DNA of 43,557 bases from a virus, in the IMG/VR virus record IMGVR_UViG_3300032323_001396, positions 1-43,557 of that record; one strand, given 5' to 3'. The position numbers and the translations under genes were made by a program. Of this stretch, positions 13,781 to 43,557 are shown piece after piece. Under the pieces are notes generated by a model, which was given only the letters and a program-made list of their open reading frames with translations, had not been told where the DNA came from and did not search any database. The number at the start of each line of letters is the position of its first letter. The stretch's first letter is position 1.

Positions 13781-14242
13781 TTACTTTATATCTCCTTGTT
13801 GTAATAATTTATCCATTAAACCATTAAAATCTGGTACAGCATTAACGGTAACCGCTTCAATACTACCAGCACCTCTAGCTGTAGATAGCATATCTTGAAC
13901 TGTTCCTACTCTATCTACAGCTGGTTGGAATACCATTGATGGATGTTGATCTCCCATGCTTGAACCAAATTGCATAGCATCATCACTTGTCATGCTAATA
14001 AAAGTTTCATTTAAAAGACTTGATATTGGATCATTGCTATTAAATGGCATTTGTTTTGGTTTACTTGTTTTGGGTTGATTTAATGTCAATGGAACGCCAT
14101 ACATATCTTCAACTGCTTCTTTTATTTTAGATTTTTTTTCAACAGGTTGCACATTTTCCTTAAGCATTTTGGGTAATTCTTCTCGAATTGCCTCAAGACA
14201 TGCTTCTTTTATTAGTTTTTTTAGTAATTGTGACTTTGTCAT
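13781..14242 (-). CDS. Hypothetical protein with a Lys/Glu-rich helical N-terminus (153 aa)
   Basis: I do not recognise the family. The first 30 residues (MTKSQLLKKLIKEACLEAIR then EELPKMLKEN) form an amphipathic helix containing LIKE|A, which fits the (I/L)-x-E rule of T4 gp21 cleavage. The middle is Lys/Glu-rich and probably flexible. The C-terminal half has SMGDQHPSMVFQPAVD and a short helix ending in MDKLLQQGDIK. It is the first gene behind the promoter element at 14247-14256, only 4 nt upstream, so any mRNA from that element would be nearly or fully leaderless. It heads the gp25-gp6 operon. A baseplate-assembly role or an internal head protein are both possible. Confidence 0.68.
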   Translation of the reverse strand: MTKSQLLKKLIKEACLEAIREELPKMLKENVQPVEKKSKIKEAVEDMYGVPLTLNQPKTSKPKQMPFNSNDPISSLLNETFISMTSDDAMQFGSSMGDQHPSMVFQPAVDRVGTVQDMLSTARGAGSIEAVTVNAVPDFNGLMDKLLQQGDIK

Positions 14243-24307: not shown

Positions 24308-26032
24308 TTGATAAAAAATATTATAGCAATTTACCCTGGACGATTCCAGCCATTTTCAAGACATCATGCCGATGCTTTTAAGTGGTTGGTTTCTAAGTTT
24401 GGACAAGATAGTTATATCGCTACTACTGATAAAGTTGATCCTCCAAAAAGTCCTTTGAATTTTTCTGAAAAGAAAATGATTATTGATAAATTTGGATATG
24501 GTGCAAATCTAGTTCAAGTTAAAAATCCATATAAATCAGAAGAAATAACTTCAAAATATAATCCAAAAGACACTGCTATAGTGTTTATGGTTGGTGAAAA
24601 AGATATGACTGATGATCCAAGATTTGCAATGAAACCAAAAAAAGATGGATCTGCTGGATATTTTAAACCATATGAAGGAAATGAAGACGATCTTCAAGGC
24701 TTTGATAGACATGGATATTTAATCGTATCACCGAACGATCCAGAAGAAGGTCAGAAATATGAAATTCCTGGATACGGTAGACTAAATGGTACAAATGTAA
24801 GAAAAGCATTATCATCAACAACTAATCCAGAAGAGAGAAAAAAACTATTTATTTCTATTTTTGGATGGTATGATCCTAAGATTGATGCAATGTTACAAAG
24901 TAAATTTGAAACTCAAACAATGAATGAATCTTCAATTTTTTTTAATAAACTAATACTAGAACATGCTATTAAAGCTTTATTAGCAGAAGGCGGTGCAGCT
25001 GGTCATATGGCACATCCATTTGATCTTCCACAAGTTAAAACTGGTAAAGATCTTATTAAAGTATTTGATCAAACAACTGATTACTTAAAGAAAAATACTG
25101 TTAATGTTAAGATTGATGGTGTAAATGCGTCTATAAGATTAGCCAATATTGATGGTAAAAAACAGTTTGTAATGGATAGAGGTTCTAATAAACCTCTTGA
25201 TGTTAAAGGTGTGACTAAAGCAGAACTAAATGATAGATTTGGCGAAGGTCATGGTATGATTAAAGTAGGAGGAGTAGTACTAGATATATTTAACGAAGGA
25301 CTACCTAAGATTAAACCAGAATTAGAGAAACTTGGAATGCTAGAAGATCCAAATATTATGCTTAATATTGAGTATGTTGAAGGCGGTGGATCTAAATCAA
25401 ATGTTCAAGAGTATGAAAAAAATTATATAGTAATTCACGGCTTATTAAAAATAGAGCAAGTCACTCCTACAAAAAGATCTACAACAGCAATACCATATGA
25501 TAAAGATGCTGTAAATAGCATGATAAAAAAATTAGAACCTATTGCAAATAAAAAAGGTTTTAATTTTATGTATAATGAAGATCGACAAGCTAAACTTGAA
25601 AAAGCTCCAAATTATTCATCTGTATTATCTGATAAGTATATTATTAATATGGATGGTAAAAATAAAGAATCAAAGTCTTTACAAGATTTACTAAATTCAG
25701 CATCTAATACAAAAGGTGAAAAAATAAAACTAGCAGACGGAAAAACTGTAGATGCATTAAGTAAACAAGTTTTCTTATGGGTTAAAGATGGCAAACCTAT
25801 TTTAGATTTAATTCAAGATCCTAAAGATGCTAAAAAAGTAATAGATTCATTTGCTATTTATATGGCAACTATGCAATTAGGAGATGAATTATTAAAATCG
25901 ATGAATTCTCCTATTGGTTCTCCAGATCAACAAGAAGGTATAGTTATTGATAATCCAAAAGTATACAAGGGTCTTTATAAAATTACTGGATCATTTATAG
26001 TAAGAGGCATGGCTTCTGCATTTCAAAAATAG
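24308..26032 (+). CDS. Nucleotidylyltransferase-ligase-like fusion protein (574 aa)
   Basis: Residues 1-190 resemble a nucleotidylyltransferase of the NMNAT/cytidylyltransferase kind: AIYPGRFQPFSRHHADAF holds a changed (H/T)xGH loop, and GRLNGTNVRKAL near 160 matches the (I)SxTxxR-type motif. A linker AEGGAAGHMAHPFDLP leads to a second domain with ligase-like marks: Lys268-Ile-Asp-Gly (motif I KxDG) in VNVKIDGVNASIRL, IEYVEGG near 358, Glu543-GIVI (motif IV) and YKGLYKITGSF (motif V). Such enzymes use a lysyl-AMP or lysyl-GMP intermediate. TTG 24308 is the only possible start before the first motif, since a stop lies two codons upstream. Whether it makes NAD, joins nucleic acid or does something new is not visible. 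I know related sequences from marine T4-like phages. Confidence 0.75.
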   Translation: MIKNIIAIYPGRFQPFSRHHADAFKWLVSKFGQDSYIATTDKVDPPKSPLNFSEKKMIIDKFGYGANLVQVKNPYKSEEITSKYNPKDTAIVFMVGEKDMTDDPRFAMKPKKDGSAGYFKPYEGNEDDLQGFDRHGYLIVSPNDPEEGQKYEIPGYGRLNGTNVRKALSSTTNPEERKKLFISIFGWYDPKIDAMLQSKFETQTMNESSIFFNKLILEHAIKALLAEGGAAGHMAHPFDLPQVKTGKDLIKVFDQTTDYLKKNTVNVKIDGVNASIRLANIDGKKQFVMDRGSNKPLDVKGVTKAELNDRFGEGHGMIKVGGVVLDIFNEGLPKIKPELEKLGMLEDPNIMLNIEYVEGGGSKSNVQEYEKNYIVIHGLLKIEQVTPTKRSTTAIPYDKDAVNSMIKKLEPIANKKGFNFMYNEDRQAKLEKAPNYSSVLSDKYIINMDGKNKESKSLQDLLNSASNTKGEKIKLADGKTVDALSKQVFLWVKDGKPILDLIQDPKDAKKVIDSFAIYMATMQLGDELLKSMNSPIGSPDQQEGIVIDNPKVYKGLYKITGSFIVRGMASAFQK

Positions 26033-27024: not shown

Positions 27025-28914
27025 ATGCCAAGTAAGTCAGTAAAACAACAACGTTTAATGGGAATGGTTCGCGCTGCTCAAAAAGGAGAACTAGAAGATC
27101 CATCGCCAACAGTCAAAAAATTAGCTAAAACAATGACAAAAAAATCCGCAGCTGAGTTTGCATCAACAAAGCATAAAGGTCTTCCTAAAGTAGTAAAAAA
27201 GACTAAGAAAGCAATCAAAGAAAATTACGAAAATAAAGTAGGCATGTTACACATTGTACAAAAACCGTATGATGGATGTTCATGTGATAAAATGATGCAT
27301 CAAGTAGATCCTATGCATGGTCATAGCCTAGATCCACAAACAATTCATGGAATATATGGTACTCCAGAAGAGGCTATGAAAGTAGCCGAATCTCTTTATA
27401 AAGGTCATATGGATTCAATGAAAAAACTTGAAGAGAAAAAAGATAGAGTTGTTAATAAATTGAATTCTACAATCGATATGCTTGAAAGAAAGCGTAAAGA
27501 TTATATGAAAATGGCAAAAGAAGATCCTAAAAATGCCTCAGCTCATAAGTCTAAAATGACAGAAATCTCTACTCAAATTGAAGGTTTAATGGATAAACTT
27601 GAAAATGTGAGTAAAAGTAAAAAAGAAATGCTTGAAGAAGGAGATGATACTCTAGAAACAATAATTGGAGATTTAGATGGCGGATATATCAAATCAAATG
27701 ATGGCGGATTTGAAGTAAGATATAAATATTTTAAAGAAATGCCACCTTCTATTCTAAAGAAATTAAAATCTAGTGGATTTGATTGGAGAGAAATAAATAC
27801 TGATTCAGAAGAAGGGGGCGTTGTATATCAAATAACTAAAAAACAAATTTCAGAGGGTAAAAAATCAGATATGGACGGAGACGGAGATATCGATTCTAAA
27901 GACTATCTTTTAAAACGTGATGCTGCTATTAAAAAATCAAAAGCAAAATCAATGAAAGAAGAGTTTAACCCAGCAGATAAAATCACAATGGATGTTCCTC
28001 TTTTTATTCGTATGATGGAATATGCTCGTGAAGATGCAAAGACTGATATGGACTTACATAATGTTGCAGAAAAGGCAATTGCGCTAAGTTCTTCTGGTAA
28101 AACACTGTCTATGTCCGATTATTCAACAATAGTAGGAGAAACAGAATCAATAAATGAATATCAAAAATCTACCAACACTGGTACACTGACTATTGAAAAA
28201 AAAGAAGACAATAAATACTACTGGACATTTGAGTTTATTAATTCAGGTAAAACCTTTAGCGGCACTGAAGGACTTAATAGTAAAACAGCCGCTCAAAGAG
28301 ATTTCATGTCTAAATCAACATATATAAAAGAAGCACTAAGAGAAGACGACTGGATGCAAGCGGATGATGAATCCGATATGGCTAAATCACAATTAAAATC
28401 AATCCAATCAAATGCTTCTAAATTAATGAGCATGATTGATAATAATGAACAATTAGATGCGTGGGTACAAGCCAAAATAACTAAAGCTGAAGACTATTTA
28501 AACTCAGTTGAAGGATATTTAAAAGGTGAAGAAACAAAGCAGTACGGTTTATATGAAAATGTAAATGAGTCTTTAGCAAAAAAAGTAGAAGAAATAATAA
28601 AAGCGATTACTATACTTCATAATAATACATTAAAAAATCAAAATATACCAGAAATCGATAAAAAAGGACTACTTCGCGCTTTTGATATATTAAAAGCAGA
28701 TTTAGAAACTGTAATCACAAATCTTAAAGGTGGATTATCTGAAAATATGAATACCTATGAGGAAGATTTATTAAGTATTATATTGACTTATGTAGAAGAT
28801 ACAGACAAAGCTGAAGAATATGCAAAATCGGATATGAAAAATTGGCCTAGTTACGTTGTAGCAGATGTGAAAAAAGATCCAAGATACAAGGAATATCTAA
28901 AAAATAATATGTAA
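27025..28914 (+). CDS. Multi-domain hypothetical protein with DUF3008-like N-terminus and EF-hand loop (629 aa)
   Basis: Residues 1-55 (MPSKSVKQQRLMGMVRAAQK, then KKLAKTMTKKSAAEFASTKHK) match the small DUF3008 family. Residues 140-205 are a coiled-coil-like Lys/Glu region. A perfect EF-hand calcium loop, DMDGDGDIDSKD, lies near 282-293 with Asp at loop positions 1, 3, 5 and 12, Gly at 6 and Ile at 8. Residues about 447-505 (ESDMAKSQLKSIQSNASKLM, then LDAWVQAKITKAEDYLNSV) form a helical domain also found in the 143-aa protein at 32527-32958. The C-terminus ends EDTDKAEEYAKSDMKNWPSY. The string of small, unrelated domains with flexible links suggests an internal or core-packaged protein, but no function is known to me. 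Confidence 0.7.
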   Translation: MPSKSVKQQRLMGMVRAAQKGELEDPSPTVKKLAKTMTKKSAAEFASTKHKGLPKVVKKTKKAIKENYENKVGMLHIVQKPYDGCSCDKMMHQVDPMHGHSLDPQTIHGIYGTPEEAMKVAESLYKGHMDSMKKLEEKKDRVVNKLNSTIDMLERKRKDYMKMAKEDPKNASAHKSKMTEISTQIEGLMDKLENVSKSKKEMLEEGDDTLETIIGDLDGGYIKSNDGGFEVRYKYFKEMPPSILKKLKSSGFDWREINTDSEEGGVVYQITKKQISEGKKSDMDGDGDIDSKDYLLKRDAAIKKSKAKSMKEEFNPADKITMDVPLFIRMMEYAREDAKTDMDLHNVAEKAIALSSSGKTLSMSDYSTIVGETESINEYQKSTNTGTLTIEKKEDNKYYWTFEFINSGKTFSGTEGLNSKTAAQRDFMSKSTYIKEALREDDWMQADDESDMAKSQLKSIQSNASKLMSMIDNNEQLDAWVQAKITKAEDYLNSVEGYLKGEETKQYGLYENVNESLAKKVEEIIKAITILHNNTLKNQNIPEIDKKGLLRAFDILKADLETVITNLKGGLSENMNTYEEDLLSIILTYVEDTDKAEEYAKSDMKNWPSYVVADVKKDPRYKEYLKNNM

Positions 28915-29530: not shown

Positions 29531-29869
29531 ATGATTAAATTAGTAGACATAATAAAAGAGATCTTATCGGATAAAATATACGAAACTAAAGGTACTCTTA
29601 TGGCAGACACAACAAAGAGAGCTCTAGCTGATATACTTTCAGATATTAGATCTATTGAAGGTATTACTGTAGTTAGGGTAACAAATAATCGTCAACCTTC
29701 TGCTGAAAAATTAAAAAAATATGTTGTTGATATTAGTGTAAAAATAGATCCATCGCCATTTGATTCATTTGGTACAGATCAAGTAAAAATAATACAACAA
29801 GAGATTAATAATGTACCAGGAGTAAGAAGAGCAACATTTGAAGATAATATTAAACTAGTAAAAAAATAA
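29531..29869 (+). CDS. Small MIKL-tagged protein, candidate internal head protein (112 aa)
   Basis: The N-terminus MIKLVDIIKEILSDKIYE is almost the same as those of the proteins at 30943, 32527 and 32960. It ends in I-x-E, fitting the cleavage rule of T4 gp21. The remaining 85 residues alternate strands and helices (ITVVRVTNNRQPSAEKL, YVVDISVKIDPSPF, VKIIQQEINNVPGVRRATF), suggesting a ferredoxin-like fold of two beta-alpha-beta units. No known family is apparent to me. It lies ahead of the endolysin in the same unit. If the tag is a capsid-targeting sequence, the folded part would be delivered into the host with the DNA. Confidence 0.68.
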   Translation: MIKLVDIIKEILSDKIYETKGTLMADTTKRALADILSDIRSIEGITVVRVTNNRQPSAEKLKKYVVDISVKIDPSPFDSFGTDQVKIIQQEINNVPGVRRATFEDNIKLVKK

Positions 29870-29876
29870 AAACAAT

Positions 29877-30695
29877 ATGTTATTAAAAAACGGATCAAAA
29901 GGAGAAGAAGTTAAACAACTTCAAACAAAATTAGGATTAACTGCAGACGGTTCATTTGGACCTGGTACAGAAGCCAAAGTAAAAGAATGGCAAGCAGCAA
30001 ATGGCTTAACAGCAGATGGACTTGTTGGTCCCGGTACTTGGACTAAGATGTTTGGTGAATCTGTTGCTGCACCATCAGTAGCTATTCCTCCATCAAGTTT
30101 TAAATTGCAAGCATTAAAAGGTCATATTCCTGACGCAGTAATTGCTCAAATTCCTGATACTGCTGCAAAATTTGGTATTACTACTCCATTAAGATTAGCT
30201 CATTTCTTGGCACAATGCGGACACGAATCTGCTGGTTTTAAAGCTGTAAATGAAAACTTAAACTATTCAGCAGATGGTTTAGTTAAAATCTTTGGAAAAT
30301 ATTTCAATGCAAGTACTGCTCCTGGATATGCTCGTAATCCTGAAAAGATTGCAAATAGAGTATACTCATCAAGAATGGGTAATGGTAATGAAGCTTCTGG
30401 TGAAGGTTGGAAATATAGAGGTCGTGGATATATTCAATTGACTGGTAAAGATAATTACAAAGCATTTGATGCAACTGTAGATGATGATATTCTTACAACC
30501 CCAGATTTAGTAGCTACTAAATACCCACTATCTAGTGCAGCATTCTTTTTTAATAAAAATGGTCTTTGGTCTATTTGCGATAAAGGCGCTGATGTTGCTA
30601 CGGTAACTGCTGTGACTAAAAGAGTAAATGGTGGTACCATCGGCTTAGATGATAGAATTAAACATTTTAATGAGTATTATGCTTTATTAAAATAA
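29877..30695 (+). CDS. Endolysin: peptidoglycan-binding domain plus GH19 lysozyme (272 aa)
   Basis: Residues 1-60 are a PG_binding_1 domain with two half-repeats, LQTKLGLTADGSFGPGT and WQAANGLTADGLVGPGTW. Residues 75-272 form a glycoside hydrolase family 19 (chitinase-like lysozyme) domain: Glu117 in LAQCGHESAGF is the likely acid, and GEGWKYRGRGYIQLTG (175-190) is the family signature, with a second acidic residue expected in this region. The enzyme cuts peptidoglycan at the end of infection. There is no signal peptide or membrane anchor, so it needs a holin, for which the next gene is a candidate. It replaces the T4 e-type lysozyme, a different fold, and agrees with the absence of a lysozyme domain in the hub proteins. 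Confidence 0.9.
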   Translation: MLLKNGSKGEEVKQLQTKLGLTADGSFGPGTEAKVKEWQAANGLTADGLVGPGTWTKMFGESVAAPSVAIPPSSFKLQALKGHIPDAVIAQIPDTAAKFGITTPLRLAHFLAQCGHESAGFKAVNENLNYSADGLVKIFGKYFNASTAPGYARNPEKIANRVYSSRMGNGNEASGEGWKYRGRGYIQLTGKDNYKAFDATVDDDILTTPDLVATKYPLSSAAFFFNKNGLWSICDKGADVATVTAVTKRVNGGTIGLDDRIKHFNEYYALLK

Positions 30696-30736
30696 TTGAT
30701 AACTATAAACGCCCTATATGGATACTGATAGTAAAC

Positions 30737-30946
30737 ATGAAAACTTGGAATCAAACACTAAAACAAAATATAGCAACCCTTTGTCTAATGACGGCGGTGT
30801 TTTTCAATCCATTTGGGTTCGATATAGTTCAATATTCATTAATCAAAAAGTTAGGAAATTTATGGAAAGCCAACATAGCTATGTATGCTATTGCGGCTTT
30901 CTTTTTTGGACTATATATCTTATTACGTCATAAAAATAAAAAATGA
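30737..30946 (+). CDS. Small membrane protein, possible holin (69 aa)
   Basis: Two hydrophobic stretches lie near residues 14-28 (LCLMTAVFFNPFGF) and 46-63 (ANIAMYAIAAFFFGLYILLR), with a basic end HKNKK. The frame overlaps the next start by four bases (ATGA), which supports it over the alternative frame in the same stretch that would start at 30718. Position just after the endolysin and the two-span topology suit a small holin of class II type, but a membrane protein with another function cannot be excluded. I recall similar proteins in marine T4-like phages. Confidence 0.62.
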   Translation: MKTWNQTLKQNIATLCLMTAVFFNPFGFDIVQYSLIKKLGNLWKANIAMYAIAAFFFGLYILLRHKNKK

Positions 30947-32268
30947 TTAAATTAATAGACATATTACTTGAAGCCACTAAACCTTTAAACTTAGTAGATA
31001 TCATAAAAAAAGAATTTGATAGTACTGGGTATAAAGGAGCAAAGAGTAGTAAACACGGGTCTCATTTAAGATATGATCTAGGAAGCTCAAAAGACACAGA
31101 GAGTACACTATCAAATATTCTTAATATTTTAGGATTAGATTATAAGATCACAGTAATAGATGCTAATGATTTTAAAAATGGCGCTAAATCTGGTACATAT
31201 AAAACATACAAGGTAGATAGCGGTGATCAAACAGTTTATATAGTAAATCAACAAAGAGAGAATTCTACTATTGTATCAAAATCTCTTAGTCCTACTAATC
31301 TAGGAGTAATAGGAAAAACATTCTCAAGTACTGAATCATTAATTAAAACAGTAAATTCTAATTTAACTACTAATAAAGATTTACTTAGTTCTTTAATGAA
31401 TGATGTAGCGAATAATACAAAAAAAGAATCTTTAGATAAACTACAAGATTTTAAAGAAGATATCGCATTATCTAGCACTACAATTGATGCAGCAAAAGAT
31501 CTTTCTCCAGCAGATATTAATACAATTGGAAAAGATTTTGGAGAAATACTAGGTTCTATTTTTTTACTTAAAAAAGTAAAATCTCCTAGTTTAGAATTTC
31601 CTAGTGGTAATAATCCTTTAATTGATTTTATCATAAATGATTATAAAGTATCTTCTAAGTATAAATCAGGCGCAGCTGCAACTTTGACTGATATTACAAA
31701 TGGCATAGATAAAAAAACTCTAAAAAAACAAAATCAAAAAAATCTATATACGGTATTAGATATAATTGTAAATAAAAATGTATCTAGCGGATATTTAGAA
31801 GTTGCTAAATATTTTAATTTACCAGGTATTCAGGAATTAGCTAGAATAATGAAAATGCCAGTAGAGAATGTAACAACTGCTTCTATTAATGACTATGTAC
31901 GAGCAGACAAAGAAAAAGCATTAAAAGCCCTAAATCCTTTTTATAAAACTATTAATAGAGGGCCTAAAAATAATGAAGTAAATTGGGATAAATTATCTGA
32001 TAAAAAATTATATGGAATAGTCATAGGACCATTATCATATTATGTAGTAGATTATTTAAATAGTAATAAAGAATATAAAGACGCTTTAGCTGAACTATTA
32101 TCCAAAATAGAAGTAAAACAATTATATTTAAATATTCAATTAGGAAAACAGAAATTAGATTTTAATTTAAAATCATTTTCAGATCCTAATGCGCAATTCA
32201 CATTTGAATCCCCAAATCAATCTATCTATAATCCAGATAATGGTAGATTAGGTTTTAAAATGAAATAG
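30943..32268 (+). CDS. MIKL-tagged protein, possible packaged nuclease (441 aa)
   Basis: The N-terminus MIKLIDILLEATKPLNL carries the shared tag followed by LLE|A, a good gp21-type site. The first 23 codons match the 112-aa gene at 29531 closely, even at DNA level. Residues 195-250 hold a suggestive block: a Glu in DFGEILGSIFLL, FPSGNNPLIDFIINDYKVSS and then KYKSGAAATL. Its spacing of acidic residue and S-x-K after a strand recalls PD-(D/E)xK-type nuclease cores, but with Ser in the middle position. The rest is helical. If the tag is correct, this is the largest candidate internal head protein, comparable in being injected to T4 Alt or IPs. The nuclease idea is only pattern-based. Confidence 0.66.
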   Translation: MIKLIDILLEATKPLNLVDIIKKEFDSTGYKGAKSSKHGSHLRYDLGSSKDTESTLSNILNILGLDYKITVIDANDFKNGAKSGTYKTYKVDSGDQTVYIVNQQRENSTIVSKSLSPTNLGVIGKTFSSTESLIKTVNSNLTTNKDLLSSLMNDVANNTKKESLDKLQDFKEDIALSSTTIDAAKDLSPADINTIGKDFGEILGSIFLLKKVKSPSLEFPSGNNPLIDFIINDYKVSSKYKSGAAATLTDITNGIDKKTLKKQNQKNLYTVLDIIVNKNVSSGYLEVAKYFNLPGIQELARIMKMPVENVTTASINDYVRADKEKALKALNPFYKTINRGPKNNEVNWDKLSDKKLYGIVIGPLSYYVVDYLNSNKEYKDALAELLSKIEVKQLYLNIQLGKQKLDFNLKSFSDPNAQFTFESPNQSIYNPDNGRLGFKMK

Positions 32269-32269
32269 A

Positions 32270-32530
32270 TTGAAACCATATAAAGATACAGAAATAAAGG
32301 AAAATTATGTTATAAGAGAATTCTCAGTTGATTTAGATTCTGAAGAATTAAAGTGGCATAGAGATTATGAAGATAGAATAGTAGAGTCTATAGGTAAAAC
32401 AGACTGGAAAATTCAATTAGAAAATGAATTACCGATTACGATAAAAAATAAAGTATTTATTCCTAAAGGCGTTTGGCATAGAGCGATCAAGGGATCGGAT
32501 AATTTAAAAGTAAAAATAACAAAGCTGTGA
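32270..32530 (+). CDS. Small cupin-like protein (86 aa)
   Basis: REFSVDLDSEELKWHRDYED near residues 16-35 and NELPITIKNKVFIPKGVWHR near 52-71 are the two halves of a compact cupin-like barrel: candidate metal ligands are His29 and a late His70, with an acidic residue near each. I recognise the pattern from marine T4-like phages. The start is TTG at 32270, one base after the preceding stop; the first residues are MKPYKDTEIKENY, and no ATG is available before the conserved part. The stop overlaps the next gene, whose start is GTG (GTGA). Metal-dependent catalysis or a small-molecule binding role cannot be told apart. Confidence 0.7.
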   Translation: MKPYKDTEIKENYVIREFSVDLDSEELKWHRDYEDRIVESIGKTDWKIQLENELPITIKNKVFIPKGVWHRAIKGSDNLKVKITKL

Positions 32531-32958
32531 TAAAATTAACAACAATCCTACAAGAGTATACGCCTAATCCGCATGAAGTTCCTCAGATTAGATATGGTAA
32601 TGAAGTAAGACCTTCATATTCTAAGCCATCTCTTTCAAAAACAGATATGAATGCTATTGTAGACATGAATAAGTTTGTTTGCAAAGATTGTGGATCTGTA
32701 ATGGCGCCTTTAGGAGAATGTTATGAGTGTGAAACTCCAGCATACGATAACGAAGTATATGGTAATCCTTCTCAAGATAATGAAGCACAGATGGCTAAAG
32801 GAGAACTAAAAAGCATGATTAAAAATGCAGTAGAACTATATAATAGTATTCAACCAAATACAGAATTACCAGGATGGATGTCTGCATATATAACACTATC
32901 AAGTGATTATGTTAATAGCGTAAACCAATTTGCACAATCACAAGTTAAACGTAAATAA
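32527..32958 (+). CDS. MIKL-tagged zinc-ribbon protein (143 aa)
   Basis: It begins at GTG 32527 with MIKLTTILQEYTPNPHEVPQ, the shared N-terminal tag with I-L-Q-E as the likely cleavage point. Four cysteines then form a compact zinc ribbon: CKDCGSVMAPLGECYECET (residues about 56-74). The C-terminal half, from DNEAQMAKGELKSMIKNAVE to GWMSAYITLSSDYVNSVNQF, matches the helical domain of the 629-aa protein at residues 447-505: the MAK, LKS, NA, W, A-x-IT and DY-NSV positions coincide. The domain thus occurs in two proteins of one operon, one of them tagged. Function of the domain is unknown. Confidence 0.7.
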   Translation: MIKLTTILQEYTPNPHEVPQIRYGNEVRPSYSKPSLSKTDMNAIVDMNKFVCKDCGSVMAPLGECYECETPAYDNEVYGNPSQDNEAQMAKGELKSMIKNAVELYNSIQPNTELPGWMSAYITLSSDYVNSVNQFAQSQVKRK

Positions 32959-32959
32959 A

Positions 32960-33421
32960 ATGATAAAACTTAAAGATATACTGAAATTAATAATTGAAGA
33001 GGCTGAAATAGGAGCTCCTAAACAAAATGTAGCTTTTGAAGAAGATCCTATGAATTATATTCTAACCAAATATAAGATGTTAACTTCTCATTTAAAAACA
33101 TTAATGGGAGATCAATTTAAAGAGTATCTTGGAGGAGTATTTATTGTATCTGGAAAGCCTACTACATTTAAAATACTTCTTAAGAATGGTCAATACTTTT
33201 ACATGGTTTATATGGGTAAAACATATGAAGCAAACGTTTTAGGTAAAAGATACTATCTTATGAATATTGGTGAAATACAAATGGCAACTATGGCTGTATC
33301 AAGAATATTAAGATTTGGTAATGTTTCAAAAGCACAAGGACCAGATAGCGAAGAAGGACCACGTTCAGAATCAATGCCAACCGAAGAACCAGCAAAAGAA
33401 ACTCCAGCAGAGGAGGCTTAA
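32960..33421 (+). CDS. MIKL-tagged hypothetical protein (153 aa)
   Basis: I start it at ATG 32960, giving MIKLKDILKLIIEEAEIGAP. An in-frame TTG ten codons upstream lies inside the previous gene and would bury the tag. The sequence IIEE|AEIG is strikingly like the T4 gp23 maturation site (FLTE|AEIG). A globular middle follows (YKMLTSHLKTLMGDQFKEYL, then FKILLKNGQYFYMVYMGKTY), and the tail is acidic and Pro/Glu-rich (EEPAKETPAEEA). It closes the accessory unit, 121 nt before the terminase. A packaged internal head protein is the best guess. The fold is not recognised. Confidence 0.68.
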   Translation: MIKLKDILKLIIEEAEIGAPKQNVAFEEDPMNYILTKYKMLTSHLKTLMGDQFKEYLGGVFIVSGKPTTFKILLKNGQYFYMVYMGKTYEANVLGKRYYLMNIGEIQMATMAVSRILRFGNVSKAQGPDSEEGPRSESMPTEEPAKETPAEEA

Positions 33422-33542: not shown

Positions 33543-35150
33543 ATGTCTGAACAAGTTAATAGACAGACTACAATTAAAGATAAAATTCGTGAAGAGTTTA
33601 TAAAATGTGCCACTGATCCGGTATATTTTATGAAGAAGTACTACATGATTCAGCATCCTCAAAAAGGTAGACAATTATTTGATCTGTATCCTTTTCAAGA
33701 GTCAATGATGAAAGTATTTACTGGGGATAAGAATGTAATCATAAATAAATCAAGACAATTAGGTATATCAACATTAGTATCAGCCTATTCATTATGGCTT
33801 ATGCTATTCCATAAAGATAAAAACGTTCTGGTAATTGCGACTAAGCAAGAGACAGCCAAGAACATGGTTACCAAAGTTAGATTTGCATATGATAATCTAC
33901 CTGCTTGGTTAAAAATAGGAACAACTGAAGACAATAGATTAAGTCTTAGACTTACTAATGGATCTCAAATTAAGGCTGTATCAGGAGCAAGTGACTCTGC
34001 TCGTTCTGAAGCCGTATCTCTTTTAGCAATGGATGAAGCTGCATTTATAGATAATGCAGAAGAACTATTTGGTTCCGCTCAACAAACGTTGGCAACCGGT
34101 GGTAAGTGTATTGCTTTATCAACTCCAAATGGTGTTGGTAACTGGTTCCATAAAACATATTCTAGAGCACAAAAGAAAGAAAATAGTTTTGTCCCAGTCT
34201 CTCTTCCATGGACTGTTCACCCTGATAGAAATCAAGAGTGGAGAGATCAGCAAGACAAAGATCTTGGATTAAGAATGGCCGCACAAGAGTGTGACTGTGA
34301 CTTTTCAAGTTCTGGTGCTACGGTAATCATTCCAGATATATTAGCTTGGTATGAAGAAAATATAATATTAGAGCCAATTGAAAGAAGAGGTTTAGATAGA
34401 TCATTATGGATTTGGGAATATCCTAGTCCAATGAAAACATATCTATTAACGGCTGACGTTGCTCGTGGAGATGGTGGAGACTATTCTGCATTTCATATTA
34501 TAGATATAGAAACATTGACTCAGGTTGCAGAATTTCAATCTCAATGCGATACAAGAGAGTATGCTAATATAATTATTGCTGCAGCTTCTGAGTATAATAA
34601 TGCTTTAGTTGCAGTTGAGAATGCTAATATTGGATGGGACGTTTTACAATCATTAATAGAAAGAGGATATAACAATCTTCACTATAGTCATAAATCTGAT
34701 ACTAGTCTAGATGCAGAAAAACATTTAGATAGATTCGATAATTCAAGTACATTAGTTCCAGGATTTACAACATCTACAAAATCAAGACCTCTTATTGTTG
34801 AAAGAATGAGAGACTTTGTAGAAACAAAACAAGTTGTAATAAGATCTATTAGATTATTAGAAGAACTAAGAGTATTTATATGGAAAAATAGTAAAGCTCA
34901 AGCAATGAGCGGATATAATGATGATCTGGTAATGTCTTTTGCAATTGGCATGTACATGAGAGACTCATCAATAAGATTTAAAAGAAATGCTGAAAGCTTA
35001 ACATATGCTAGTTTAAATAGTTTTACAAGAACTACTGATAACTCAGCAGTATATAACGCAAGTAGTCATTTAAATAGCAATCCATGGGCAATGGAAGTAC
35101 AAAATAATGCGGGATCTTCTGTTGAAGATTTATCGTGGTTAATAGGATAA
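33543..35150 (+). CDS. 17: Terminase large subunit, T4 gp17-like (535 aa)
   Basis: The ATPase half shows the adapted Walker A SRQLGIST at residues 70-77, Walker B LLAMDEAAF with Asp164-Glu165, and the coupling motif LSTPNGVGNWF near 192-202. The RNase H-like nuclease half has its acidic triad at Asp305 (LTADVARGDGGD), Glu359 (VAVENANIG) and Asp460/461 (YNDDLVMSFAIGM). T4 gp17 is 610 aa. The protein cuts concatemeric DNA and pumps it into the prohead at the portal. It heads its unit behind its own promoter element and is followed 10 nt later by the portal gene. No small terminase (gp16) or gp18/gp19 gene is seen next to it, unlike T4. Confidence 0.95.
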   Translation: MSEQVNRQTTIKDKIREEFIKCATDPVYFMKKYYMIQHPQKGRQLFDLYPFQESMMKVFTGDKNVIINKSRQLGISTLVSAYSLWLMLFHKDKNVLVIATKQETAKNMVTKVRFAYDNLPAWLKIGTTEDNRLSLRLTNGSQIKAVSGASDSARSEAVSLLAMDEAAFIDNAEELFGSAQQTLATGGKCIALSTPNGVGNWFHKTYSRAQKKENSFVPVSLPWTVHPDRNQEWRDQQDKDLGLRMAAQECDCDFSSSGATVIIPDILAWYEENIILEPIERRGLDRSLWIWEYPSPMKTYLLTADVARGDGGDYSAFHIIDIETLTQVAEFQSQCDTREYANIIIAAASEYNNALVAVENANIGWDVLQSLIERGYNNLHYSHKSDTSLDAEKHLDRFDNSSTLVPGFTTSTKSRPLIVERMRDFVETKQVVIRSIRLLEELRVFIWKNSKAQAMSGYNDDLVMSFAIGMYMRDSSIRFKRNAESLTYASLNSFTRTTDNSAVYNASSHLNSNPWAMEVQNNAGSSVEDLSWLIG

Positions 35151-35160
35151 AAAAAGAAAA

Positions 35161-37092
35161 ATGGCAGAAGTACAACAGAATTTATTTTCAACACTACGTA
35201 GACTTTTTAGTACAGACGTAATTATTCGTAATGATGGCGGTGGCAATATGCTACGCGTTATGGATACTGATAACATACAAGCAAATGGTGTTATTCAGAC
35301 AAACTCTATAATCGACCGTTTTCATAGAGTTTATACAACATCTACTGCGTATGGTGTTAATTTAAATCTAGCAATGAACTATCAGTCTGCTAGGGTTCAA
35401 ATCTATGCAGACTATGATGCTATGGATACAGATGCTATTATCGCATCTGCATTAGATATTATAGCAGATGAGTGTACATTAAAGAATGAACAAGGTCAAG
35501 TATTGACAATTAGATCATCTGATGAAAATATTCAAAGACTATTAGAAAATCTATTTTATTCTGTATTAAATATTGAATTTAATCTATGGTCTTGGATTAG
35601 AAATATGTGTAAATATGGTGATTTTTATCTTAAGATGGAAATTTCTGAAGAATATGGTGTTTACAATGTAATACCATTCTCTGCATTTAATATAGTTCGT
35701 CAAGAGGGTTATAATCCTACTAATCCAAATGAAGTAAGATTTAAATTTGATCCTAATGCTGCATTGGCTTCTACTTCAGGTTACACATCAGCTATGAATA
35801 ATCAAGATCCTGGTGTATGGTTTGACAACTATGAAATGGCTCACTTTAGATTAATAGGAGACGTTAACTATCTTCCATACGGTAGATCTTATTTAGAACC
35901 AGCAAGAAAACTATTTAAACAATACACTCTTATTGAAGATGCGATGCTGATTCATAGAGTTACTCGTGCTCCAGAAAGAAGAACATTCTATGTAAACGTA
36001 GGAGCTATTCCTCCAAATGAGGTTGAAAACTATGTACAAAAGATGATTAGTAAGATGAAGAAAACTCCTCTTATTGATCCTCATACTGGAAATTATAACT
36101 TAAAATATAACCAACAAAACCTATTAGAAGACTTCTTTATCCCAGTTCGTGGTAATGATACTTCTACAAGAATTGATACTGCGAAAGGTTTAGAGTACAA
36201 CGCCATTGAAGACGTTCAGTATTTTAGAGAGAAGCTATTTGCTGCGTTAAAGATTCCTAAAGCATTCATGGGATATGAAAAGGATCTTACTGGTAAAGCA
36301 ACATTGGCAGCAGAAGATATTAGATTTGCTCGTACTATTGAAAGATTGCAAAGAATAATAGTATCTGAACTTAAAAAAATAGCGCTTGTTCATTTATATG
36401 CAAATGGTTATACAGATGAATCTATGGCTAATTTTAGCCTTAGTTTAACTAATCCTTCTATTATCTATGATCAAGAAAGGATTGCAATGTTTAAAGAAAA
36501 AATAGATCTTGCAACTCAAGCTATAGATGGTCATATTTTACCAAGAGAATACATATGGGAGAATATTTTCCATCTATCTCCAGATTCATTTGGGGAACTT
36601 GAAGATATGATTGTACAAGACTTAAAAAATAAATTTAGATACGATCAAATTGAAACTGAAGGAAATGATCCTTTAGAATCAGGTGAAGCATTTGGAACTC
36701 CTTCTCAAATTGCTGGTTTATATGGAGGAAAAACAGCATTACATGTACCTCCTGGATATAATGAAAATGATCCAACAGAACCAGTTAAATTACCAGGACG
36801 TCCAGAAAAATATAAATCTACATTTAGAACAGACGATAGTGCATTCGGAAGAGATGCTATTGGTAGATACGGAATGAAATCTAATGCAGAAAAAGGCGAA
36901 GATTCTTTTAAAAGATCAGAATATAAAGGTGGTCCTTTAAGTTTTGAAAGTACAAAAGCCGTTTATTTTCAAAATAAAGAGAGTCTAGGAAAGATATTTT
37001 CAAATAGAAAAATTAATCTTTTTGAAGCAAGTGTTGATGATAATAACTTGCTAGATGAAAGAAACATTAAAGAAGATTTAACCGAATCATAA
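35161..37092 (+). CDS. 20: Portal protein, T4 gp20-like (643 aa)
   Basis: Family marks include a central EDAMLIHRVTRAPERRTFYV followed by NVG near residues 258-280 and DLTGKATLAAEDIRFARTIE around 373-392. The dodecameric portal is the head vertex through which DNA passes and the docking site of the terminase. T4 gp20 has 524 aa; this one has a C-terminal extension of roughly 120 residues that is rich in Gly, Pro, Asn and charged residues and looks flexible. Near its end lies INLFEASVDD, containing LFE|A, a possible gp21 cleavage site. The gene is 10 nt after terminase. Whether the extension is trimmed in the mature head is an open point. Confidence 0.93.
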   Translation: MAEVQQNLFSTLRRLFSTDVIIRNDGGGNMLRVMDTDNIQANGVIQTNSIIDRFHRVYTTSTAYGVNLNLAMNYQSARVQIYADYDAMDTDAIIASALDIIADECTLKNEQGQVLTIRSSDENIQRLLENLFYSVLNIEFNLWSWIRNMCKYGDFYLKMEISEEYGVYNVIPFSAFNIVRQEGYNPTNPNEVRFKFDPNAALASTSGYTSAMNNQDPGVWFDNYEMAHFRLIGDVNYLPYGRSYLEPARKLFKQYTLIEDAMLIHRVTRAPERRTFYVNVGAIPPNEVENYVQKMISKMKKTPLIDPHTGNYNLKYNQQNLLEDFFIPVRGNDTSTRIDTAKGLEYNAIEDVQYFREKLFAALKIPKAFMGYEKDLTGKATLAAEDIRFARTIERLQRIIVSELKKIALVHLYANGYTDESMANFSLSLTNPSIIYDQERIAMFKEKIDLATQAIDGHILPREYIWENIFHLSPDSFGELEDMIVQDLKNKFRYDQIETEGNDPLESGEAFGTPSQIAGLYGGKTALHVPPGYNENDPTEPVKLPGRPEKYKSTFRTDDSAFGRDAIGRYGMKSNAEKGEDSFKRSEYKGGPLSFESTKAVYFQNKESLGKIFSNRKINLFEASVDDNNLLDERNIKEDLTES

Positions 37093-39956: not shown

Positions 39957-40589
39957 ATGAGCAAACAATTACTTGTAGAATATTCAATATTTAAACCTAC
40001 GCAATCCTTAAAAGAAGGAGTTCATGGTTCTAATGGAACTATAATGGTTGTTGGTAAATTATCGTCTGCTGATATTCCAAATGCTAACAGAAGAGTCTAT
40101 CCATTTGATATTTTAATGGAGCAATCTAAAAAATATGCTGATGGTCCTATTAGAGAACGTAGAGCATACGGTGAATTAGACCATCCAGAATCTTCTATAA
40201 TTAATTTAAAAAATGTAAGTCATAATATTGTAGATATTTGGTGGGAAGGAAAAGATCTTTATGGTAAAGTAGAAATATTACCTACACCATCTGGAGATAT
40301 TCTAAAAAAACTATTTGAAAATAATCTATCTGTAGGTATATCATCAAGAGCTATGGGATCAGTAACTCAGATAGGAGAAGGTCTAGTTCAAGTAGAAGAT
40401 GATTTAGACATTATATGTTGGGACTTTGTTTCTACTCCTTCAAACTTTGGAAGCTATATGAGACCAGAAGGAAAAGCAGGATTAAAAGAGTCAATATCTT
40501 ACGAAAAAGAAGTTGATCGATACGCAAAAGCTCACATGATGATTCGAGATTTAATCTGTTCTCAATCGGGAATTTGTTGCATAAATTAA
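39957..40589 (+). CDS. 21: Prohead protease, T4 gp21-like (210 aa)
   Basis: The catalytic residues of the phage prohead serine protease family are visible: His76 in GELDHPESS, Ser129/130 in LSVGISSRAMGS, and a downstream acidic residue in IICWDFVSTPSNFG near 151-156. The opening MSKQLLVEYS resembles the start of T4 gp21 (QLLIE), where the enzyme processes itself. T4 gp21 cleaves scaffold, capsid and internal proteins after (I/L)-x-E during head maturation. Length is close to T4 gp21 (212 aa). It is the last gene of its unit, with a hairpin terminator 16 nt after the stop, so it is not co-transcribed with scaffold and capsid. Confidence 0.93.
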   Translation: MSKQLLVEYSIFKPTQSLKEGVHGSNGTIMVVGKLSSADIPNANRRVYPFDILMEQSKKYADGPIRERRAYGELDHPESSIINLKNVSHNIVDIWWEGKDLYGKVEILPTPSGDILKKLFENNLSVGISSRAMGSVTQIGEGLVQVEDDLDIICWDFVSTPSNFGSYMRPEGKAGLKESISYEKEVDRYAKAHMMIRDLICSQSGICCIN

Positions 40590-40688: not shown

Positions 40689-40744
40689 ATATAGCGCTAT
40701 ATACAAAATTCTAAATATTGCCTCTCTCAAATCTAATAGGCAAT
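40689..40744 (+). other. Structured leader of the gp22-gp23 unit
   Basis: Two elements stand in the leader. A perfect 14-bp palindrome ATATAGCGCTATAT covers 40689-40702. A hairpin pairs ATTGCCT (40717-40723) with AGGCAAT (40738-40744) around a 14-nt loop and ends 30 nt before the ATG. No coding signal is seen. The structure could act in RNA stability, protein binding or translation control. Confidence 0.5.
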
Positions 40745-40774
40745 TACAATCCAAAAAAACTAATTAAAAAAAGT

Positions 40775-41872
40775 ATGGAAAACATTTACCAACAAGCGGT
40801 ACTTGATGCTAAAGCTGTACGTGCTAGTGCAATGGCCAATGCAAAAGCTACAATTCAGGAAGCATTCGAACCAAAAATTAAAGCAATGTTGAAAAAACAC
40901 ATTGTAGAATCTGAAGAAGATCTAGATGAAGAATACGGCAGTAAACATGAAATGGCTTATGATGAAGCTAAAGAAATGGAAGAAGCTGAATACATGGATA
41001 CTTCAAAAATGAATGTTGCAGATGACGGCTCTTCAATGGATGACATGCCAATGGAAGAAGAAATGTTAGACGAAACTGCACTTGATGAAATCTTAGCAGA
41101 ACTAGAAGCAATGACTGAAGAAGAAGTAGAAGATGAAGAAGAGATGGAAAACGATCTTGAAGACATGAGCATACAAGAAATGTATGACGTAGGCGGACTA
41201 GAAGAAGCTGAAGAAGACGAAGAGGAAGCTGAAGAAGAAGAATCAGAAGACGAAGAGTCTGAAGAGGAAGAAGAATCAGAAGAAATGGAAGACGAAGAAT
41301 CTAATGAAGAAACTAAAGTTGTAGACATCACTCTTGGAGATCTTGTTGATGCAATTAAAGCAGCAATGGGCAGTCAATCAGCAATGTCTGACATGGAAGC
41401 TTCTGAAGATGATAGCATTTCACTTGACGAAATCTTAGCTGAATTAGATGAAGAAGAGAAAATGGAAGAAGCTGATGATTATATGGAAGAAAAGAAAAAA
41501 GACGATCATTCAATGGAAGAAGCTAAAAAAGAACTTGAAAAAGCTAAAAAAGCTATTGAAGAAATGAGAGCTGAGCTTAATGAAGTTAATCTTTTGAATG
41601 CAAAACTTCTTTACGTTAATAAAATCTTCAAATCAAAATCTCTTACAGAATCACAAAAAGTAAAAGTATTGAACGCTTTTGACAGAGCAACAAATGTTAA
41701 AGAAGTTAAAAATGTATATGCTACAATTAACGAATCAGTAACAGCAGCTCCTAAAACGCAAATAAAAGAATCTTACGGTTTTGCATCTAAGCCAACTGGA
41801 TACTCTCAAAAAACAAACACAGTAGAGTCTGATCCATTTATCGCAAGAATGCAAAAACTAGCAGGACTTTAA
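40775..41872 (+). CDS. 22: Prohead scaffold protein, T4 gp22-like (365 aa)
   Basis: ATG 40775 gives MENIYQQAVLDAKAVRASAM, a typical helical gp22 start; a TTG 57 nt upstream lies inside the leader hairpin and adds no conserved residues. The middle, about residues 50-200, is one of the most acidic stretches in the window, with long Glu/Asp runs. A Lys/Glu coiled coil (AKKELEKAKKAIEEMRAELN) follows near 250-275. The end DPFIARMQKLAGL resembles the C-terminus of gp22 proteins. T4 gp22 (269 aa) forms the inner core of the prohead and is degraded by gp21. This one is about 95 residues longer, mainly in the acidic part. It directly precedes the capsid gene (42 nt). Confidence 0.9.
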   Translation: MENIYQQAVLDAKAVRASAMANAKATIQEAFEPKIKAMLKKHIVESEEDLDEEYGSKHEMAYDEAKEMEEAEYMDTSKMNVADDGSSMDDMPMEEEMLDETALDEILAELEAMTEEEVEDEEEMENDLEDMSIQEMYDVGGLEEAEEDEEEAEEEESEDEESEEEEESEEMEDEESNEETKVVDITLGDLVDAIKAAMGSQSAMSDMEASEDDSISLDEILAELDEEEKMEEADDYMEEKKKDDHSMEEAKKELEKAKKAIEEMRAELNEVNLLNAKLLYVNKIFKSKSLTESQKVKVLNAFDRATNVKEVKNVYATINESVTAAPKTQIKESYGFASKPTGYSQKTNTVESDPFIARMQKLAGL

Positions 41873-41914: not shown

Positions 41915-43557
41915 ATGAATCTAGTAAATTCCCTTTTACAAGAATCTGCTCAGAACGCGTATACGTCGACTCTGACAGTTGCTCAACGCCTAGTTAAAAA
42001 ATGGGGCAAATCAGGTCTTTTGAAGAACTTGAACGAGCATGATGCAAGAAACATGGCAATGATTCTTGAAAACCAATCTAAGCAATTAGTAACTGAATCT
42101 TCAGCTTCTACAGGTGGTGTTAGCAATGGCGCAACTTTCCAAGCTGGTAACGGTGAACAATGGGCTGGTGTAGCTTTACCATTGGTTCGTAAGATCTTTG
42201 GTCAATTGGCTTCTAAAGAATTCGTAAGTGTTCAACCAATGAACTTACCTGCTGGTCTAGTATTCTATCTAGATTTCCAATATGGTACTACAAACCCTGA
42301 AGGTTTTACTGCTGGTAATTCTTTATATGGTAACAGAACTGGTACTAGTTTTAGTAATAGCACTGAAGGCGGTCTTTATGGCGCTGGTAAATTTGGTTAT
42401 TCTTTGAACGTATTTAGCGGATCAGGTACAGGTACTGTTACTTCTGGATCTATGTTAAATCTTGAGTTTGACACTACTTACTCTGCATCAGTTGCTGCTC
42501 AGCAAATTAAAGCAATTGCTGTACCAACATCATCAATACCTAATTTTAACACACTTGGAATTAGAGCTTTCTCTATTACATCTGGATCTACTGTAGGAAC
42601 TCAAAACACTATTGCTCAAGCTACAGCTTTAGTTGGCGGTGATATCGTATTCTATGTATCTGGTTCAAGTACTGCTATTCCTAATGGTGGAACTTATGTA
42701 ATCAACTACAACAAAGCTACTGATTTCAACAAAATGGGTGACTTTGAAGATCGTACTGTTACTCAAGGCGTGTCTGTACCTAATGCTTACTCACCATCTT
42801 CAATCGCTATCCCAGAGGTTAACGTACAAATGGTAAGTCAAACTATTTCTGCTAAAACACGTAAGTTGAAAGCACAATGGACTCCAGAATTTGCACAAGA
42901 TCTTAATGCTTACCATTCTTTGGATGCTGAAGCTGAATTGACTGGTATTCTTTCTGAGTACATCACTCTTGAAATTGATCTTGAAGTATTGGATATGTTA
43001 ATTCAATCAGCTCCAACAAGAGATTTCTGGTCTGCTAAAGTAGGTGAGCAAATCAATAGCACTGGTACTGCATTTACTTCTAACACTTCTGGTGTTTATT
43101 ACACTCAAATGAGCTGGTTCCAAACTATCGGTATTAAGCTTCAAAAATTATCTAACGTTATTCACCAGAAAACAATGCGTGGTGGTGCTAACTTTATGGT
43201 AGTTTCTCCAGCTGTTGCAACAATTCTTGAATCAATCCCAGGATTTGCAGCTGATACTGACGGTGCAGCAGATACAATGAAATATGCATTTGGTGTTCAA
43301 AAAGTAGGTGCTTTGAATAGCCGTTACAAAGTTTATAAGAATCCTTATATGACTGAGAACGTTATCTTGATGGGTTTCCGTGGTAATCAATTCTTGGAGT
43401 CTGGTGCTGTATATGCTCCTTACGTTCCATTGATCATGACTCCTCTAGTGTACGATCCAAATACATTTACACCAAGAAAAGGTATCATGACTCGTTACGC
43501 GATGACTATGGTTCGTCCAGAATTCTACGCTAACTTGTTTATATCTGATTTGCAAAT
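41915..43557 (+). CDS. 23: Major capsid protein, T4 gp23-like (3' end beyond window)
   Basis: ATG 41915 opens a frame that stays open to the window end (547 complete codons). The start MNLVNSLLQESAQNAYTSTL, the segment KIFGQLASKEFVSVQPMNLP near 98-117, and the C-terminal KYAFGVQKVGALNSRYKVYK and VYDPNTFTPRKGIMTRYAMT followed by RPEFYANLF are those of gp23. A likely maturation site is QLVTE|SSAS after Glu61, close to the T4 cleavage after residue 65. T4 gp23 has 521 aa, so little is missing at the 3' end. Codons look ordered and highly expressed compared with the neighbours (more GGT, CGT, AAC). Family call is certain. Confidence 0.97.
   Translation, partial: MNLVNSLLQESAQNAYTSTLTVAQRLVKKWGKSGLLKNLNEHDARNMAMILENQSKQLVTESSASTGGVSNGATFQAGNGEQWAGVALPLVRKIFGQLASKEFVSVQPMNLPAGLVFYLDFQYGTTNPEGFTAGNSLYGNRTGTSFSNSTEGGLYGAGKFGYSLNVFSGSGTGTVTSGSMLNLEFDTTYSASVAAQQIKAIAVPTSSIPNFNTLGIRAFSITSGSTVGTQNTIAQATALVGGDIVFYVSGSSTAIPNGGTYVINYNKATDFNKMGDFEDRTVTQGVSVPNAYSPSSIAIPEVNVQMVSQTISAKTRKLKAQWTPEFAQDLNAYHSLDAEAELTGILSEYITLEIDLEVLDMLIQSAPTRDFWSAKVGEQINSTGTAFTSNTSGVYYTQMSWFQTIGIKLQKLSNVIHQKTMRGGANFMVVSPAVATILESIPGFAADTDGAADTMKYAFGVQKVGALNSRYKVYKNPYMTENVILMGFRGNQFLESGAVYAPYVPLIMTPLVYDPNTFTPRKGIMTRYAMTMVRPEFYANLFISDLQ

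Follow-up and report, generated by a model that had tools for sequence, protein, structure and literature searches.

In phage T4, the internal head proteins IPII and IPIII begin with a removable capsid-targeting sequence of 10 residues (MKTYQEFIAE/A; a slash marks the cut), with hydrophobic residues at positions 4 and 7, Ile or Leu at 8 and Glu at 10, placed in front of unrelated bodies in a genome with T4-type head genes and gp21. In IPIII, residues 4 and 7 govern targeting while residues 8 and 10 govern processing, and even among T4 relatives the bodies of the internal proteins do not show high conservation (PMC9026906). IPII, IPIII and gp24 are established gp21 substrates (PMC9958956, PMC5694885). 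The first 10 residues of gp24 (MAKINELLRE/S) are likewise removed by the prohead protease, although gp24 is a vertex shell protein and not an ejected cargo (PMC9958956). Alt (MELITELFDEDTT...) is an ejected enzyme that is packaged in the head and cut at its N-terminus; its annotated start fits the pattern of hydrophobic residues at 4, 7 and 8 and Glu at 10, but mass spectrometry placed the N-terminal cut at ITE-6 and showed a further cut at the C-terminus (PMC5694885). Outside the T4 system, the N-terminal 30 residues of phage P1 DarB send a foreign protein to the capsid (PMC9024508), but the Dar proteins are without a common consensus and do not carry a gp21/T4 tag. Ejection proteins of phiKZ and SPN3US are internal proteins whose N-termini are removed by the prohead protease at a short motif ending in Glu; these propeptides, however, are mostly longer than 100 residues, and the specificity in phiKZ is S/A-x-E (PMC5694885, PMC9026906).

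The window, which is the whole 43,557-base IMG/VR record analysed here, comes from an uncultured T4-type phage in which PHROG profiles recognise gp17, gp20, gp21 and gp23. By terminase, its nearest annotated phages are Flavobacterium phage Immuto (55%) and Microcystis phage Mel-JY01 (51%). Four ORFs with a common start, MIKL, lie between an NMN-adenylyltransferase-like fusion gene on one side and gp17 on the other, and the protease gene that a T4-type capsid-targeting sequence requires is present in the same genome (39957-40589). The features are as follows.

24308..26032, + strand, NMN-adenylyltransferase-like fusion, with an internal tag-like LEHAIKALLAE (24956-24988) before the GGAAGHMAHPFD domain
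29531..29869, + strand, tagged protein 1, 112 aa, tag MIKLVDIIKE (29531-29560), predicted cut after E10
29877..30695, + strand, endolysin (PG-binding and GH19), untagged, internal negative control
30943..32268, + strand, tagged protein 2, 441 aa, tag MIKLIDILLE (30943-30972), predicted cut between E10 and A11
32527..32958, + strand, tagged protein 3, 143 aa, GTG start, tag MIKLTTILQE (32527-32556)
32960..33421, + strand, tagged protein 4, 153 aa, tag MIKLKDILKLIIEE (32960-33001), predicted cut between E14 and A15
33543..35150, + strand, gp17 terminase, context and anchor for collecting relatives
35161..37092, + strand, gp20 portal, context, by PHROG profile
39957..40589, + strand, gp21-type prohead protease (phrog_207, E=1.7e-43)
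40718..41872, + strand, gp22-like scaffold, by position; its C-terminal RMQKLAGL (41846-41869) is the motif of a second tag
41915..43555, + strand, gp23 major capsid protein (phrog_138, E=1.3e-71), also compared through the N-termini of relatives

The original prediction held that four ORFs, at 29531, 30943, 32527 and 32960, share their N-termini, and this is confirmed. Over residues 2-10, the six pairs of tags score 17-31, whereas the window's 940 remaining ORF pairs average -6.4 (SD 7.1); the observed sixth-best pair score of 19 was never reached in 2,000 random-position controls (maximum 16). The likeness of the first ten residues is above chance within the window. The bodies were said to be unrelated, which stands insofar as residues 16 onward have no homology (best BLASTP E = 0.3), but needs amending because relatives have counterparts of the 441-aa and 153-aa proteins joined in a single protein. 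Each tag was said to end in a match or near match to (I/L)xE; residues 8-10 match in the first three, while in the fourth position 10 is Leu and IEE occupies 12-14. The EAEIG that follows the fourth tag, likened to the T4 gp23 site, differs in orthologues (KETHEDHS, KEAGEEQS, KEQDEQQ), and the identity is probably due to chance. Orthologues of tagged protein 1 (MIKLIDILNESYNP..., MIKLVELFNEEASA...) retain both tag and body. The 143-aa body has two CxxC pairs (by eye), and the 153-aa ORF starts at an internal ATG inside a longer TTG ORF. The label 'nuclease-like' for the 441-aa body finds no support: no Pfam family scored above cut-off, and neither the model of this protein nor that of the 153-aa protein matched a PDB fold at E <= 0.001. 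Among the full-length orthologues of the endolysin that were listed, none has the tag, as one would expect if lysis requires this protein to be in the cytoplasm.

The tags follow the geometry of the T4 sequence. Around the head genes of relatives, 44 distinct N-termini were chosen on their first four residues (MIKL) only. All 44 carry a hydrophobic residue at position 7, one of the two targeting positions of T4 (the other, position 4, being fixed by the selection); Ile or Leu occupies the processing position 8 in 40 of 44, and Glu10 is found in 40 of 44 compared with a background of 6.5%, the fourth tag of the window having its Glu at 14. Expressed as a decapeptide rule (hydrophobic 4 and 7, I/L/M/V/F at 8, Glu at 10), the pattern matches 4 of 276 T4 ORFs, namely IPII, IPIII, gp24 and 61.1. 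Further, a profile built from the MIKL tags alone, with no T4 input, ranked gp24 first of the 276 T4 ORFs and IPIII 58th, so the likeness to the internal proteins is geometric and not at the level of residues. The residues of the T4 consensus MKT[FY]xEFIxE are not shared, as T3, Y/F4, E6 and F7 are missing from the MIKL tags, which suggests a variant equivalent to the T4 tag in its working but outside its sequence family.

Matches to the rule are concentrated upstream of gp17. Across nine clade contigs, 27 of 161 ORFs in this unit match, compared with 4 of 857 elsewhere; since the contigs are related, the location p-value of 6e-19 is only indicative. The enrichment is without significance in some single contigs (e.g. 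G002, G003 and the window), and with a profile of the window's four tags alone it was significant only in G001, so that the general rule applied to the nine contigs gave the clearer picture. One of the four matches outside the unit is the window's own gp23, whose N-terminus MNLVNSLLQE/SA (41915-41944) fits the rule.

The original prediction proposed a search of related genomes for the tag fused to other bodies, and such fusions are abundant. A DNA scan of IMG/VR for MIKLxDILxE covered at least 120 contigs, without being a census, and gave at least 151 matches; 149 of the 151 matches listed start ORFs of at least 50 aa. Among the matches listed, an in-frame stop lies a median of six codons upstream of the tag start, and the bodies form at least 63 unrelated clusters, defined by single-linkage BLASTP so that remote homologues are possibly split apart. 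As a control, a scrambled decapeptide of equal degeneracy was found in 10 contigs. At 109 of the 120 tag loci listed, one or more proteins of the window, Immuto or T4 find a match (the window's gp17 at 26 loci and its gp21 at 12), a rough sign of T4-type context only, because the query set includes the tagged proteins. The corresponding gene stretch of relatives is rich in short proteins with recurring N-termini. For example, contig G008 has seven rule-fitting MIKL ORFs in the unit, including a HAD nucleotidase (MIKLMSLLKE/VEEAPKKLYCDLDGVLVDFE), and its eighth rule match is a P-loop protein that starts MVKLINLLRE. Enzymes among the tagged cargos comprise NUDIX, zeta-toxin-like kinase, HAD nucleotidase, RNase_T and ATP-grasp proteins, and the Pfam domain starts right behind the tag (at residue 15 for NUDIX and 13 for the zeta-toxin kinase). 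Like the T4 sequence, the MIKL tag is a short leader of about 10 residues that is independent of the body behind it and occurs with T4-type head genes and gp21; unlike it, it uses other residues (MIKLxDILxE), carries many more cargo families per lineage and is known here from sequence alone.

The MIKL and T4-type tags also appear interchangeable on homologous bodies. Scanned for in the same manner, the positive control MKT[FY]xEFIxE behaved just as the MIKL tag did, with 132 matches, 130 ORFs of at least 50 aa and 53 body clusters. For eight MKT[FY]-tagged proteins, the clade set contains a homologue of the body; these cases are few and assigned by homology only. In the clearest of them, HAD nucleotidase bodies that are 36% identical (E=2e-24) follow MKTFLEFITE in one phage and MIKLMSLLKE in another, which suggests that lineages place their own tag on the same enzyme. 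Split and fused genes also favour the capsid-targeting reading. In L060, L102, L055 and L215, single proteins align at residues about 30-165 to the 153-aa protein and at 200-670 to the 441-aa protein; these fused relatives measure 530-700 aa, the 153-aa protein being homologous to the N-terminal domain and the 441-aa protein to the C-terminal two thirds. The separate halves in the window each carry their own tag, and the fused forms have a tag-like site at the domain border (LIKE/A, LLLQE/A). Conversely, the NMN-adenylyltransferase-like fusion of the window has ALLAE/GG at its border, and in G001 the GGAAGHMAHPFD domain is a separate ORF starting MNLIKILLSE/GGTGGHM.

Based on these comparisons, MIKLxDILxE is very probably a lineage-specific capsid-targeting propeptide that gp21 would remove. 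The tag would bring unrelated cargo proteins into the prohead core, gp21 would then cleave after Glu10 (Glu14 in the 153-aa protein), and the mature bodies would stay inside the head, from where they could exit with the DNA. Confidence is high for the first two steps, binding of the tag to the core and its cutting by gp21, both of which are very likely; somewhat lower for the presence of tagged cargo in mature virions, which is likely; and lower again for injection and action in the host, which by analogy is rather more probable than not. The arsenal of delivered effectors first proposed is best called plausible; some tagged bodies of other phages resemble cell-wall hydrolases, which would be odd for injected effectors. 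The capsid-targeting reading is strongly supported by comparison, through the T4 geometry, the sharp bounds, the many cargos, the tag swap and the gp21 gene, and lost two of its original supports, the T4 gp23 identity and the start at 13781. The latter (LIKE/A) belongs to the tail cluster and shows no clear tag, whereas another start considered related, at 28914, is ambiguous in the window but has homologous bodies in L142, L152 and L153 that begin MIKL.

The strongest competing explanation keeps the tag as a signal for the prohead core and has the cargo serve assembly, as core or scaffold accessories or in DNA condensation, to be degraded or to stay in the head, with no injected arsenal. The fit of the window's gp23 (MNLVNSLLQE) and the case of the T4 shell protein gp24 favour it, as does the 153-aa family, which many relatives encode shortly upstream of gp17. 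However, many cargos are typical enzymes that vary strongly among relatives, unlike core assembly parts, and this explanation is unlikely, if far from negligible.

It is much less probable that the tag is an amphipathic helix for localisation to a host membrane or protein complex during infection, unrelated to the head. Hydrophobic residues 4, 7 and 8 would fall on one helical face, and the models show a separate N-terminal helix: in the 153-aa protein a helix at 4-17 is followed by a weak linker and a body (30-119) at pLDDT about 95, and in the 441-aa protein there is a low-confidence helix at 2-12. Against such a role stand the fixed Glu10, the match to known gp21-cut leaders, the similar decapeptide of gp23 and the clustering upstream of gp17.

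Slightly less probable still is an element acting at the DNA or RNA level, such as a translation start enhancer or recombination linker, with the peptide incidental. Across 63 representatives, the information content climbs at the ATG and is back at background beyond codon 10. Conservation at the DNA level is limited to codons 1-10, synonymous sites vary, Glu10 is retained with either codon and the upstream bases are nearly unconserved apart from A-rich positions immediately 5' of the start; the synonymous variation argues for selection on the peptide, and the peptide rule also picks known T4 gp21 substrates. A DNA-level origin of the tag was mostly rejected on this codon-level conservation. 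In its favour stand the A-rich positions and one bias: the D6-I7 codon pair is GACATA in 64% of tags compared with 9% elsewhere in the same contigs (L128-L246), which may reflect common ancestry of the tag DNA or an additional constraint on the nucleic acid. Finally, the identical kind of start in all these proteins could mark one diverged family with a shared fold past residue 20, the condition under which the original prediction would have fallen and which the at least 63 body clusters, several named folds among them, and the loss of conservation after residue 10 refute almost completely.

The MIKL tag is accompanied by further repeated N-termini. Among the ORFs of the gp17-anchored set, 20 have [QKE]x[LIM]AG[ILV] at or very close to the C-terminus, all at the position of a gp22-like scaffold; the window's scaffold ends FIARMQKLAGL, and Immuto and Mel-JY01 are also in the set. 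Many small proteins near the scaffold-bearing region start MKKQxLNExxRMQKLAGIITE (e.g. L086 11676-12140 and the G001 unit), and an IMG/VR scan for MQxLAGI[ILMVF]xE gave 135 matches, of which 123 fall in the first 30 residues, with 88 unrelated body clusters. We infer a putative second tag, RMQKLAGIxxE, by which cargo would enter the core through a copy of the scaffold's C-terminal peptide, with a gp21 site behind it. Another N-terminus that recurs, FNLxKFLVENxLTxxSxxxEE, is the third of its kind and occurs both in Immuto proteins (99, 171, 182 and 333 aa) and in about 16 ORFs of relatives (L086, which is Immuto, G005, G006, L030, L049 and others), usually 0.4-1.4 kb upstream of gp17.

Several observations stand beside these results. 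The gp23 of the clade (window 41915-42100 and relatives) has a conserved N-terminal peptide, M(A)NLVxSLLxE/SA, and a likely maturation site QLVVE/S with Val at P3; the candidate site in the window is LVTE/SS at residue 61. Maturation of gp23 in this clade seems to occur at (V)xE and not at strict (I/L)xE, a point against the capsid-targeting reading, and with Val at P3 the gp21 of the clade may accept V-x-E. T4 gene 61.1 (54 aa; NC_000866 18966-19130) starts MKTFKEFIKEDM and fits the capsid-targeting rule; its uncharacterised product may be an unrecognised internal head protein. The tail-cluster protein MTKSQLLKKLIKEACLEAIREEL (window 13781-14242, minus strand) is conserved in relatives and resembles the MKKSQLRxIIKEEL starts upstream of gp17 in Immuto. 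MIKL-tagged bodies of L239, L153, L208, L179 and L221 contain YHxT/YHFT-like stretches reminiscent, by eye, of ADP-ribosyltransferases; Pfam gave no match for the three searched (L239, L153, L208).

In open-access texts, where peptides in figures are not searchable, no mention of the tag peptides was found. Open-access literature likewise yielded no virion proteomics of this phage or its relatives, the paper on Baltic Sea Flavobacterium phages omitting Immuto. For Immuto, the predicted mature N-termini, after Glu, are MISIYNILKE/V, MRLLELLRE/A, MKKVMGNLADLLLE/E and ...RMQKLAGIITE/S.

To our knowledge, phage proteins that enter the host with the DNA are known in few phages only. In the MIKL tag we very probably see a lineage dialect of the T4 capsid-targeting sequence, alike in its mode of working and different in its residues. 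On balance, we favour a cargo code that is portable and comes in lineage dialects (MKT[FY]xEFIxE, MIKLxDILxE), with a second, independent scaffold-copy tag (RMQKLAGI then xxE), by which well over 100 unrelated families of environmental phages would be recognisable as head cargo from their first 10-25 residues, many of them probably delivered effectors. A tag that can be read from sequence turns into a testable list of candidate delivered proteins, including kinases, NUDIX hydrolases, nucleotidases and many unknown folds, in widespread and mostly uncultured T4-type phages. The tag predicts mature N-termini, which are open to direct mass-spectrometry tests, and it may offer a loading signal for phages of other hosts.
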